Shown: piece after piece, positions 5,385 through 21,416 of the stretch | Position numbering within the stretch: the first letter of the stretch is position 1 | Layout: each line of letters begins with the position of its first letter | NCBI RefSeq assembly: GCF_002005165.1 | Contig: NZ_CP019699.1 | Location: 1,178,001 to 1,242,000 of the forward strand | Origin: Novibacillus thermophilus | Lineage (GTDB): Bacteria > Bacillota > Bacilli > Thermoactinomycetales > Novibacillaceae | Direction: 5' to 3' | DNA length: 64,000 nucleotides | Program-made: the position numbers and the translations under genes | The notes under the pieces: model-generated | Database searches by the model: none | Seen by the model: the letters and a program-made list of their open reading frames with translations, nothing else | What the model was told of the DNA's origin: nothing

Positions 5385-7262
5385 GTACGCCCAGCATGGG
5401 CGTCATCTATAGGGTGAAAGTCCCGAACGGGGGCTGGCGAGCGCCTACCGTAGTCAAAGGCAAGGGTGTCCGTCGCGAGGCGGAATCTGAAGGAAGCCGG
5501 AGACAAACGCACGGGTCAAGGTACACGAACTGGATTTGAGGCAGGATTAGTTGGATGAGTTGCCAGAACACAACGAAATCCAAAGCCGCCAAGGGCTCAT
5601 CCTGTAAACTCCAGTGATCGCGGGCGGAAAGATGACGCTCTTATCTGGGGAGGCCTGCGGAACACGCGAAGTAACATCGTAACCGCAGTCGAGAGGCTGC
5701 GCTGAATCCGCAGGAGTCAGCAGAGGCCATAGTACGCAAGTACGGGGCGCCGGAAAGCGGAAGGGCCGAACCGAAAGGAGAGAGGAAACCGATGCGTTCG
5801 AGAGAAGAGCGCAGACAGCAGAATATCCCGCAAGGGAGCTGCCAACAGAGAGCAGCGGTGAAGCCGCGAGGGTATGTTGGAGCGCCGAGCTCTTCTCCGG
5901 CACAAGTCGCCCCTTCCTCTCGCGAAGACCATAACGACTTGCTGGACAGGATGCTTGAGAGAGAAAATCTCTTGCTCGCATACAAGCGAGTGGTCCGAAA
6001 CGGAGGAGCGCCCGGAGTGGACGGAGTAACGGTAGCTGAACTGCAGGCTTACCTGAACACACACTGGGCACAGGTGAAAGCAGAGCTCCTAGCGGGAACC
6101 TACAAACCCGCGCCAGTCAAACGGGTGGAAATCCCCAAACCTGGAGGCGGCGTGAGGCTTCTAGGGATCCCGAACGCGATGGACCGGCTCCTCCAGCAAG
6201 CCCTGCTGCAAGTGATGCATCCGATCTTCGATGCTCACTTCTCATGGGACAGCTACGGCTTCCGACCAGGGAAGCGAGCCCATGATGCGGTCCTTCAAGC
6301 CCAGCGCTATATCCAGAGTGGATACAGATGGGTTGTGGACTTGGACTTAGAGAAGTGCTTTGACCGAGTAAACCACGACATGCTCATGGGGAGGGTAGCA
6401 AGAAGGGAGCAGGACAAGCGAGACCTGAAACTCATCCGGGTGTACCTCAACGCCGGAGTCATGGTCAACGGAGTATGCCAACGGACAGAGGAAGGGACGC
6501 CGCAAGGCGGACCGCTGAGTCCGCTTCTGGCCAACATCTTGTTGGACGACCTGGACAAAGAACGAAAGAAACGCGGGTTGCAATTCGCACGTTATGCGGA
6601 CGATTGTAACATCTTTGTCGCTAGCAAGCGCGCAGGGGAACGCGTCATGGAATCGGTGATTCGCTTTGTAGAGGGAAAGCTGAAACTGAAAGTGAACCGA
6701 GACAAAAGTGCGGTAGACCGCCCCTGGAACCGGAAATTCCTAGGGTTCAGTTTTCTGCCGGACAAACAAGCAACGATTCGGTTAGCCCCGAAGACCGTCT
6801 CCCGATTCAAAGATAGAATACGTGAGATGACGAGTCGTTCACGGGCGATCTCCATGGAAGAGCGAATTAAACGGCTCAACCGCTACATCATCGGTTGGGT
6901 CAGGTACTTTCGACTGGCATCGATGAAGACGCACTGTGAAAGATTCGACCAATGGATTCGGCGCAGACTGAGGATGTGCCTATGGAAACAATGGAAACGG
7001 GTCAGAACCCGTCTTCGTGAACTTAGGGCCCTTGGCGTACCAGAATGGGCCTGCTTCATGATGGCCAATTCCCGCCGAGGACCATGGGAAATGTCCCGGA
7101 ACACAAACAATGCCCTTCCGACTTCCTACTGGGAAGCGAAAGGGCTGAAGAGTATGCTTTTTCGTTATATGGAACTTCGTCAACCTTTTGGAACCGCCTA
7201 GTGCGGACCCGCATGCTAGGTGGTGTGAGAGGACGGGGGCTAGCCGCCCCCTCCTACTCGAT
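5385..7262 (+). mobile_element. Group IIC intron, full length
   Basis: The 5' end reads GTACGCCCAGCATGGGCG followed by CTATAGGGTGAAAGTCCCGAA and later AAGGGTGTCCGT. These closely follow the domain I start of the crystallised Oceanobacillus iheyensis group IIC intron as I remember it. The reverse transcriptase gene fills the middle. The 3' end shows a domain V helix (about 7191-7226, starting GAACCGCCTAG and closing CTAGGTGGT) and a domain VI stem ending CCTACTCGAT with a candidate branch-point A. Element length is about 1,878 bases. It sits right behind a terminator and interrupts no gene. The exact ends are by analogy. Confidence 0.85.
5792..7201 (+). CDS. ltrA: Group II intron reverse transcriptase/maturase
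   Basis: 469 residues. The reverse transcriptase core spans roughly residues 65-320, with RLLGIPNAMDRLLQQAL, GTPQGGPLSPLLANI and the catalytic FARYADD. The maturase (X) domain follows, with RLNRYIIGWVRYFRLA. No HNH endonuclease domain is present, typical of class C introns. The protein binds its own intron RNA, aids splicing and copies it into new sites. The ORF looks intact. Oddly, its last codons and the TAG stop at 7199-7201 lie inside the 5' strand of RNA domain V rather than in domain IV. The ATG follows a purine-rich GAAAGGAGAGAGG. Confidence 0.93.
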   Translation: MRSREERRQQNIPQGSCQQRAAVKPRGYVGAPSSSPAQVAPSSREDHNDLLDRMLERENLLLAYKRVVRNGGAPGVDGVTVAELQAYLNTHWAQVKAELLAGTYKPAPVKRVEIPKPGGGVRLLGIPNAMDRLLQQALLQVMHPIFDAHFSWDSYGFRPGKRAHDAVLQAQRYIQSGYRWVVDLDLEKCFDRVNHDMLMGRVARREQDKRDLKLIRVYLNAGVMVNGVCQRTEEGTPQGGPLSPLLANILLDDLDKERKKRGLQFARYADDCNIFVASKRAGERVMESVIRFVEGKLKLKVNRDKSAVDRPWNRKFLGFSFLPDKQATIRLAPKTVSRFKDRIREMTSRSRAISMEERIKRLNRYIIGWVRYFRLASMKTHCERFDQWIRRRLRMCLWKQWKRVRTRLRELRALGVPEWACFMMANSRRGPWEMSRNTNNALPTSYWEAKGLKSMLFRYMELRQPFGTA

Positions 7263-19279: not shown

Positions 19280-21030
19280 GACGTCATGCCTCCTTTGGCG
19301 ACGAGTGCTTCCAACTGTTGGCTGCGGTAGACGGAAGCATACCATCCTTCGTTGTTCATCAAGTGATCATGTGTGCCGCGTTCGACGATGCGCCCTTGAT
19401 CCAGCACGAGAATGAGGTTCGCGTGTTGAACGGCGCTCAAGCGGTGCGCGGCAATGATGGTCGTTTTGTTTTGCCGGGTCTGTTTGAGAGAGCGGAGAAT
19501 CGCCTCCTCGGTTTTGGCGTCAACCGCTGACAGCGAATCGTCGAGAATGAGGATGTCCGGATCGGCGAGCAGTGCCCGGGCAATGGAAATACGCTGTTTT
19601 TGTCCCCCTGACAGCGTGACGCCCCGTTCGCCGACGATGGTGTCGTATCCGTCCTGAAAGCCGAGAATGTCCTCGTGAATGTGGGCGAGACGCGCCACGC
19701 GTTCAATTTCCCCTTGTGATGCATCGGGGTTGGCGAACGCAATATTTTCCGCAATTGTGGCCGAGAAGAGGAAGTGGTCCTGTGGCACGTAGCCGATCGA
19801 ACGGCGCAAGGCGTCAAGCGTGTAATTGTAAATCGACCGTCCGCCAATGGCGATATCCCCGTTTTCACAGTCGAACTCTCTCAGCAACAGTTTCAGAACG
19901 GTCGTTTTGCCGCTCCCGGTTTTGCCGACGAGCCCGACGGTTTCGCCAGGTTGGAGCGAGAAGTGAACATTTTGTAACGCAGGTGTCTCCTGCCCGGGGT
20001 AAGCAAAAGTTTGAATGTGGAACGCGATCTCCCCTTGCGGCCTTTCGTCGACGGCTCCTTCCCGGTTGACGATGTCCGGTTTGATCTTCAGCAGCCGGCT
20101 AATGCGGTCGTACGATGCGCGGCCCCGTTCCACAATGTTGAACAGAAAACCGAGGGCCAGCATCGGCCAGATCAGAAGACCTAAGTAAATGGTGAAACTC
20201 GTCAATTCCCCAAGGGTCATGGTATTGCGTACGACGAACACGGCTCCGAAGAAAATGGCGAGAAAGTAGGAGATGCCGACGATGAAGGAAATCGTCGGAT
20301 CGAACAAGGCGTCGATTCGAGCGACGGCCATGTTCTTGTCCACAACGTCAGCCGACTGCTTGCGGAATTTTGCTTTTTCCGCTTCTTCTATGCCGAATGC
20401 CTTGACCACCCGCATTCCAGCGACGTTTTCCTGCACTTTGTCGTTCAATTCGGAGAACGCTGCTTGGGCTTTGTGAAACCGTTCGTGCAACAGGGTGCCG
20501 TACCGGCTCGTCGCCCAGGCCATGAGCGGCATCGGCATTAACGTAATCAAAGTCAGTTCCCAGCTGAAAAAGAACATGACGATTACCACGAGGCTGCCCA
20601 TGACAACGGAGTCGACCAAAGTGAGCACACCTTCCCCTGCTGTCCCTTCGACAGCCTGTACGTCGTTTGTCGCATGAGCCATTAAATCTCCGGTGCGCCT
20701 TTTTTGGAAAAAACCAGGGGACATGTTCGTAAAGTGTTCGTACAGCTGGTTTCTCAACTGCCGCCCGAGTTTGATTGCAGACCCGAACAGCATGGACCGC
20801 CAAATAAAGTTGGAACCGTAATGAATGACACCGGACGCGAGTATCAGTCCGACCCAAACAAGCAGGGTATTGACAGTGAGTGATTTTTGTTCTATGTGAT
20901 CGACGATGACACCGACGACGTACGGCGGCACCAACGAGAACGAACTCGCTACGATTAAAAAGATAATGCCGATGATGTAACTCTTTTTCTCTTGTACAAA
21001 AAACCACCACAAGTCGCGAAAAACACGCAT
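19276..21030 (-). CDS. bmrC: ABC multidrug exporter half, BmrC/YheI-like
   Basis: 584 residues from the ATG at 21030, which has GGTGGAGG before it; B. subtilis BmrC has nearly the same length. An in-frame upstream start at 21093 would fall inside the terminator hairpin and is unlikely. Membrane domain about 1-310, with FFQKRRTGDLMAHATNDVQAV. ATPase domain with Walker A VGKTGSGKTT, signature LSGGQKQR, and Walker B ILILDDSLSAVDAKT, where Asp replaces the catalytic Glu. This is the hallmark of the degenerate half in BmrCD-type heterodimers. Transcription reaches it through a leader ORF and terminator hairpin upstream. Confidence 0.88.
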   Translation of the reverse strand: MRVFRDLWWFFVQEKKSYIIGIIFLIVASSFSLVPPYVVGVIVDHIEQKSLTVNTLLVWVGLILASGVIHYGSNFIWRSMLFGSAIKLGRQLRNQLYEHFTNMSPGFFQKRRTGDLMAHATNDVQAVEGTAGEGVLTLVDSVVMGSLVVIVMFFFSWELTLITLMPMPLMAWATSRYGTLLHERFHKAQAAFSELNDKVQENVAGMRVVKAFGIEEAEKAKFRKQSADVVDKNMAVARIDALFDPTISFIVGISYFLAIFFGAVFVVRNTMTLGELTSFTIYLGLLIWPMLALGFLFNIVERGRASYDRISRLLKIKPDIVNREGAVDERPQGEIAFHIQTFAYPGQETPALQNVHFSLQPGETVGLVGKTGSGKTTVLKLLLREFDCENGDIAIGGRSIYNYTLDALRRSIGYVPQDHFLFSATIAENIAFANPDASQGEIERVARLAHIHEDILGFQDGYDTIVGERGVTLSGGQKQRISIARALLADPDILILDDSLSAVDAKTEEAILRSLKQTRQNKTTIIAAHRLSAVQHANLILVLDQGRIVERGTHDHLMNNEGWYASVYRSQQLEALVAKGGMTS

Positions 21031-21073
21031 TTTCTTTTCCTCCACCGACTGTATTCGCATATTTGACATAAAA

Positions 21074-21103
21074 ACACCATGGGTGGAACACAACCCATGG
21101 TGT
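21074..21103 (-). terminator. Attenuator-type terminator before bmrC
   Basis: Perfect 11-base arms ACACCATGGGT (21074-21084) and ACCCATGGTGT (21093-21103) with an 8-base loop. On the minus strand the hairpin is followed by TTTTATG. It lies between the leader ORF and bmrC, so it would stop transcription before the transporter genes unless overridden. Confidence 0.75.
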
Positions 21104-21135
21104 GATCGTTTCGATGTACATTGACCGGTTAAGTA

Positions 21136-21228
21136 CTAAAGTGTCAAACCGTCCAAACAAGAGGTTGTGTCATGAACTGTGTATGACATTGTGGACTGTG
21201 AGGAAAACAAACCGCTATTTGTACGCAT
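21136..21228 (-). CDS. Leader peptide of the bmrCD operon (BmrB-like position)
   Basis: 30 codons, starting MRTNSGLFSSQSTM and ending SCLDGLTL, with a very strong ribosome binding site (AAAAGGAGGTGTG) and a TAG at 21136-21138. It sits about 30 bases before a terminator hairpin that precedes bmrC. B. subtilis bmrCD is known to be controlled by a translated leader, bmrB: antibiotics that stall ribosomes on the leader prevent the terminator from forming. The peptide sequence here is not one I recognise. Function is inferred from its position and strong translation signal. Confidence 0.7.
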   Translation of the reverse strand: MRTNSGLFSSQSTMSYTVHDTTSCLDGLTL

Positions 21229-21271
21229 GACACACACCTCCTTTTATTATGGGAATTTTCCTACATGGGCT

Positions 21272-21300
21272 ATTATATAAAGGTTTCGATAAGAAGTAAA
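21272..21300 (-). promoter_or_regulatory. Promoter of the bmr leader
   Basis: On the minus strand, TTTACT (21300-21295) and TATAAT (21277-21272) are separated by 17 bases. The start site would lie near 21265, giving an untranslated and leader region of about 235 bases before bmrC. Confidence 0.6.
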
Positions 21301-21416
21301 GCTTTATGCTTCGCTATTTTTATGACAAGTGAAAAATTTAACCCGCGCACGGTTTGACGTTACACACCTCGAATTGTGATAAACTGGACGAAAAGAAGAG
21401 GACAGGGAGTGGTGGC

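Follow-up and report, generated by a model that had tools for sequence, protein, structure and literature searches.

The window, a stretch of 64,000 nucleotides from Novibacillus thermophilus (contig NZ_CP019699.1, positions 1,178,001 to 1,242,000), carries on its minus strand, in this order, a promoter-like site, a Shine-Dalgarno (SD) sequence, a 30-codon leader ORF, a terminator hairpin, a gene for an ABC half-transporter and the gene for its partner (Table 1). A preliminary description of the locus had listed promoter, strong SD, ORF, terminator and transporter in the same order and had proposed that ribosomes control attenuation of bmrCD; all of these parts are indeed present, including the perfect 11-base stem of the terminator. 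Two hallmarks of leader-ORF attenuators are found here: promoter and structural gene are separated by a short ORF that has an SD of its own, and an intrinsic terminator stands ahead of the gene.

Table 1. Features of the exporter locus and its leader, in window coordinates.
Feature	Positions	Strand	Basis or measure
Promoter-like site TTTACT-N17-TATAAT	21300-21272	minus	10/12 consensus letters
Leader SD, AAGGAGG	21243-21237	minus	direct reading of the sequence
Leader ORF, 30 codons + TAG, peptide MRTNSGLFSSQSTMSYTVHDTTSCLDGLTL	ATG 21228 to TAG end 21136	minus	
P1 5' arm (anti-antiterminator), SD + start codon	21242-21226	minus	MFE and centroid fold, duplex table
P1 3' arm, leader codons 19-24	21174-21159	minus	fold, duplex table, p = 0.004
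Predicted antiterminator, 5' side GACACAACCU	21171-21162	minus	duplex -14.4 kcal/mol; statistical support weaker
Predicted antiterminator, 3' side GGGUUGUGUU	21096-21087	minus	within terminator 5' arm + loop
Intrinsic terminator, 11-bp perfect stem, 8-base loop, U5	21103-21070	minus	-18.2 kcal/mol
Terminator stem arms	21103-21093 / 21084-21074	minus	U5 at 21074-21070
SmdA/BmrC-like ABC half-transporter, 584 aa	ATG 21030 to 19276	minus	
Partner SmdB/BmrD-like half-transporter	19345-17489	minus	longest frame; start codon unsettled

Counted by pattern, these signals are not above chance: the promoter-like pattern was found once (1.4 expected from shuffles) and the terminator-like pattern three times (1.9 expected). 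When the leader region was dinucleotide-shuffled, however, a stem of at least 11 bp followed by U's arose in only 2 of 1000 cases. The fold of the whole leader is moderately better than that of shuffles (z -1.9; 7 of 200 shuffles as good). The terminator stem starts 33 bases past the stop codon of the leader (21136 versus 21103). The shortness of its U-tract (U5) weighs against the attenuator reading. None of the Rfam 15 covariance models matched within 21020-21320, either up to E = 5 or at gathering scores. Elsewhere in the window, at 5469-5766 on the plus strand, two Rfam matches correspond to parts of group II introns (RF02001 and RF01998).

Both exporter proteins have B. subtilis YheI and YheH (BmrC and BmrD) as their best solved-structure matches, and the NCBIfam families SmdA and SmdB score best for them, below the curated cut-offs. 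In a tree of 84 proteins, built by a quick method with SH-aLRT supports only and a midpoint root, YheI/BmrC and seven further proteins form one group (support 99); the window half-transporter and 70 others form the sister group of the YheI group (support 98). Given this placement and its 47% identity to B. subtilis YheI/BmrC, we rejected the assignment of the gene as bmrC proper. What stands of the proposed attenuation of bmrCD is attenuation as the best explanation, with an antiterminator that can be drawn (see below), but not the identity of the gene. In several rows of the window's group that bear no attenuator label (see below), the gene ahead of the transporter encodes a small protein, about 70 residues long, which we take to be YneF.

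The start-hiding hairpin P1 and its relatives

The SD and start codon of the leader are paired with later codons of the same ORF in a long-range hairpin, P1 (-22.4 kcal/mol in the folding calculation). A complementarity between the leader start and the inside of the ORF had been pointed out before; it is real and longer than noted. The SD-start window binds the downstream ORF with -23.1 kcal/mol (p = 0.004, 1000 shuffles), a stronger pairing than any of the window's 47 SD-bearing long ORFs shows (mean -13.0, sd 3.0, lowest -17.7). Inspection of six further ABC genes of this genome (L002-L005, L007, L008) revealed no convincing leader of the P1 design within 500 bases, the best candidate being an 8-codon frame at L008 (-18.6). 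With the comparisons among relatives that follow, P1 is well supported, and the antiterminator described below moderately at best. The motif TTNTTT, which PMC9226507 names as a NusG pause motif for vmlR, is present twice on the minus strand, at 21210 (leader codons 7-8) and at 21160, just past the 3' arm of P1.

A search with the exporter protein gave matches in all 61 genomes (E up to 0.001, paralogues included), and the upstream regions of 133 loci were reduced to 128 distinct ones. Under a rule that makes no use of energy, 32 of these 128 combine a small ORF with a terminator and an SD of at least 5. Four of the 32 were unscorable, among them the window, since the rule took another start there; 18 of the remaining 28 reached p <= 0.05 and seven reached p <= 0.01, some of the 28 not being credible leaders. 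We also chose 29 loci by eye, all having a P1-like hairpin with an SD-bearing leader and varied pairs; percentages from this set lean upward, and the close relatives within it are not independent. The set takes in Scopulibacillus, Tepidibacillus, three Sporolactobacillus, Vulcanibacillus and three Tumebacillus, and many kinds of pair occur between SD and start. Compared with shuffles, P1 in this set had p <= 0.05 in 24 of 29 loci and p <= 0.01 in 13.

Exchanging arms between loci weakened the pairing, from a mean of -20.5 for own arms to -14.3 for swapped ones (91 of 748 swaps as good); the own arm was the best of all in 12 of the 29 loci, and at the window 1 of 20 swaps was as good. The nine spacer bases alone gave a weaker effect (-9.4 versus -6.9; 162 of 742 as good; own best in 6 of 29). 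An alignment of 28 of the 29 loci (A3, L126 omitted) yielded no pair count, because arms of unequal length were misaligned, and was discarded. The pattern GGAGGTGTGTGYCATG occurs in 8 of 398 genomes, ahead of related transporter genes in four of them, the window included, and not in the other four; for its reversed control, no genome was among the matches listed.

Leaders of the P1 design occur in both groups of the tree, those of L130, L133 and L135 belonging to the YheI group. In the window's group, 24 of the 71 rows bear the attenuator label, an unlabelled row being no proof of absence. The labels (27 rows, leaving out L018 and L036, which are not in the tree, and two Listeria loci) require 11 changes on the tree, compared with 23.1 when shuffled, indicating that the design is clustered but has been gained or lost more than once.

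In four loci (L017, L022, L025 and L031) we noticed, by eye, an extra hairpin between the leader and the last terminator that is complementary to the 3' arm of P1 and, in L017 and L031, also to the 5' arm of the terminator. This suggests a longer relay of alternative helices at these loci.

The leader of bmrCD in Bacillus subtilis

Translation of bmrB, annotated in B. subtilis as a 53-codon ORF with a GTG start, is needed for induction of bmrCD by 50S inhibitors (Reilman et al. 2014, PMC4191407). In the published model, the anti-antiterminator, the antiterminator and the terminator are all placed within the annotated ORF, at nucleotides 60-162. Of 80 genomes belonging to one family, 78 gave a match to a YheI fragment, and the 30 best matches were taken as loci; one of these (L149), with 100% identity, was taken to be B. 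subtilis. From about position 1195 of this locus, a 23-codon ATG ORF (MPRNLRVYQTVSYWRGKPFVLFS) overlaps the annotated bmrB out of frame. It starts 16 bases upstream of the annotated gene behind the strong SD AAGGAGGG, and its SD and start pair with GGCAAACCTTTTG inside the same ORF.

Each of the 30 loci has, at the corresponding place, an open leader frame that starts with ATG and runs for 23-32 codons. The start was chosen with the help of pairing energy: the chosen ATG is the best-pairing candidate in 25 of the 30, and another start pairs better in L152, L153, L166, L167 and L168. The annotated start, as a GTG opening a frame of at least 50 codons, is found in only 6 of 30 loci, one of which (L163) has unlike residues. 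Because the 53-codon frame is not conserved and a counterpart of the 23-codon ATG ORF is open in every locus, the annotation of bmrB is probably wrong and the 23-codon ORF probably the leader. The analogy with bmrB that the preliminary description had drawn fails to this extent: it leaned on the 53-codon GTG ORF, and the conserved ORF is the shorter one.

P1 covaries in these relatives. In a MAFFT alignment of the 30 Bacillus loci, 78% of its cells are paired and its score is 0.393 versus 0.227 shuffled (0/500), with slid versions reaching at most 0.212; the pairing register is the best one found, and the alignment is poor over the outer half of the helix. Two of five covariation measures, pairs changed on both sides and pair types, were not above shuffles (358/500 and 446/500). 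Locus by locus, P1 had p <= 0.05 against shuffles in 27 of the 30 and p <= 0.01 in 19. Folding the B. subtilis leader with the ribosome at different positions gave no clean gating; a relative, L174, looked gated.

The published experiments bear on both ORFs. The start-knockout of bmrB also took out alternative starts and ribosome-binding sites in the 5' UTR (PMC4191407), so it fits either ORF. An in-frame fusion to the GTG frame gave no fluorescence in single copy and was fluorescent on a plasmid, as far as the accessible text of the same paper goes, which suggests that this frame can be translated to some extent and is evidence against a pure misannotation. Our literature searches, which covered open-licence papers in PubMed Central, turned up no mention of this reannotation of bmrB.

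A covariance model (R1) built from the 30 Bacillus leaders did not match the window when run over 73 of the loci (E up to 1), so that by this model the window and the Bacillus leaders show no sequence homology, which counts against the explanation proposed below. In the same run it matched L050 and L130, and also L133, though at a place outside the leader of that locus. Over 61 genomes it gave two matches, which we dismissed as hairpins with T-rich tails and no adjoining transporter in sight.

Predicted gating by the ribosome and alternative explanations

Ten bases of the P1 3' arm are also complementary to the 5' arm and loop of the terminator. Since the same segment serves P1 and the pairing into the 5' half of the terminator, P1, antiterminator and terminator exclude one another in the folding calculations, in the classical order of an attenuator. 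The search for an anti-terminator by RNA folding, which the preliminary description had recommended, thus yields a predicted one (Table 1).

We then scanned ribosome positions along the leader, with the RNA covered to 15 bases past the point where the P-site codon begins and its 3' end growing from 21090 to 21078; the scan is computational and assumes both the ribosome footprint and the transcription start. With no ribosome, P1 kept about 14 pairs, the antiterminator had at most 0.7 and the terminator formed. The antiterminator gained 4.5-6.3 pairs with the P-site at codons 1-5, 8.8-10.1 at codons 6-15, the best range, and 5.8 at codon 16; from codon 17 onwards it had at most 0.1, and the terminator was left. 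At each ribosome position folded, the equilibrium favours the full terminator over the less stable antiterminator, so that, once completed, the terminator wins and the ON state must be kinetic.

Across loci the support for the antiterminator is modest. In 20 of the 29 loci (15.5 expected with shuffled arms) the sequence that pairs best with the 3' arm of P1 overlaps the 5' arm and loop of the first terminator, and its energy has p <= 0.05 against shuffled arms in 12 of 29, with the window at 0.05. In arm swaps over all loci, 215 of 790 swapped partners were as good as the own one; at the window 13 of 27 were, its own partner thus being no better than others, which lends the antiterminator no support.

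On the best explanation, which we consider likely, a heterodimeric multidrug ABC exporter is controlled by a transcription attenuator that is gated by translation. In the absence of a ribosome, P1 would close over the SD and start of the leader and lock the antiterminator segment, the terminator would form and transcription would stop. Under normal translation the ribosome would cover codons 19-24 and so block the antiterminator, leaving the switch OFF. A ribosome held by an inhibitor within about the first 16 codons would keep P1 open and the antiterminator segment free; this segment could then pair with the 5' arm and loop of the terminator before the terminator's 3' arm exists, and RNA polymerase would read into the exporter genes. 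We infer that the leader is translated and that the antiterminator forms in cells, the signal presumably being ribosome-targeting antibiotics.

Attenuation could also proceed without an antiterminator, with a held or trailing ribosome directly blocking the terminator and P1 only tuning translation of the leader. The modest antiterminator statistics are in keeping with this, and so is tlrB of B. subtilis, which has, in the available text of PMC6851288, no overlapping antiterminator, the stalled ribosome itself blocking the terminator. In the window, however, the P1 3' arm can pair with the terminator 5' half, and a ribosome stalled early could not reach the terminator because the leader stop lies 33 bases ahead of the stem; we regard this route as unlikely. 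We think it still less probable that the leader senses an amino acid or acts through a specific arrest peptide, despite its high content of Ser and Thr, which by count make up 12 of its 30 residues. Comparison of leader peptides, another earlier proposal, gave a mixed outcome in this respect: a segment is common to three close relatives (L037, L119 and L120), but on inspection the peptides of distant loci look unlike, and the structural gene is a drug exporter rather than a biosynthetic gene. The dissimilar look of the peptides from distant loci would favour general sensing of slowed ribosomes rather than arrest by one specific peptide.

A chance arrangement, in which a terminator and a spurious ORF happen to sit in an otherwise ordinary 5' UTR, would fit the promoter- and terminator-like counts and the modest z of the whole leader. 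This seems very improbable in view of the rarity of such a stem with U's among shuffles, the significance of P1 and the same anatomy ahead of related genes in many genera.

Likeness to known attenuators

By analogy, the translation-gated attenuator proposed for the window would work like those of bmrB, vmlR and Rli53 (lmo0919) / Rli59. As in bmrB, a leader ORF and a terminator stand ahead of a BmrC-like exporter gene and three alternative structures are predicted to compete, and the true bmrB leader, on our reading, has the same start-hiding hairpin: in the window, too, the SD and start of an ATG leader are hidden by later codons, at the same position. The two differ in that the window exporter belongs to the sister group (47% identity) and is not a bmrC orthologue, and in that the bmrB terminator lies inside the published leader ORF whereas that of the window lies beyond the leader stop. 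The anti-antiterminator of the window is formed by SD and start, unlike the published one of bmrB, which is located downstream in the annotated ORF. In vmlR, a ribosome that stalls on an upstream ORF switches between anti-antiterminator, antiterminator and terminator (PMC9226507), the same three-structure logic. However, as described in the accessible part of that paper, the vmlR ORF has three codons and a single-stranded SD before the anti-antiterminator, whereas the window leader has 30 codons with SD and start inside P1; the window is therefore not of the vmlR / Rli53 type.

In a self-gating attenuator of this kind, the anti-antiterminator would consist of the sensor ORF's own ribosome-binding site and start codon, a departure from published models. 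On balance we lean towards a class of such attenuators across Bacilli, with bmrB as an unrecognised member that has a 23-codon leader and with a model of bmrCD that needs redrawing. If this is true, bmrB, a leader gene of a model organism, is misannotated. The moving parts of the drug-pump switch are now named well enough for mutation, and the prediction is that induction needs a ribosome held at leader codons 1-16, best 6-15. This offers a possible answer to why bmrCD is induced by the 50S drugs chloramphenicol, erythromycin and lincomycin and not by kanamycin and gentamicin, the reason for which is left open by the authors in the available text of PMC4191407.

Rli59 (lmo1652) of Listeria monocytogenes, a small ORF and terminator ahead of an ABC transporter gene, shows read-through with lincomycin, erythromycin and chloramphenicol; its mechanism is not worked out in the review text available (PMC8079631, citing Dar et al. 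2016). In Listeria riparia and L. newyorkensis (L102 and L114) we observed a 32-codon leader with a strong SD (MKKIIGFD...), a terminator-like stretch and then a transporter gene of the window's group. Because these loci carry such a leader before such a gene, Rli59 may be the nearest relative seen in experiments. Their leader, in which no clear P1 was seen, is possibly the counterpart of Rli59, and their gene may correspond to lmo1652. In Tepidibacillus, Vulcanibacillus and UBA6259 (L044, L059 and L077), the interval from leader to transporter holds two successive terminator-like hairpins, both with CCATGG.
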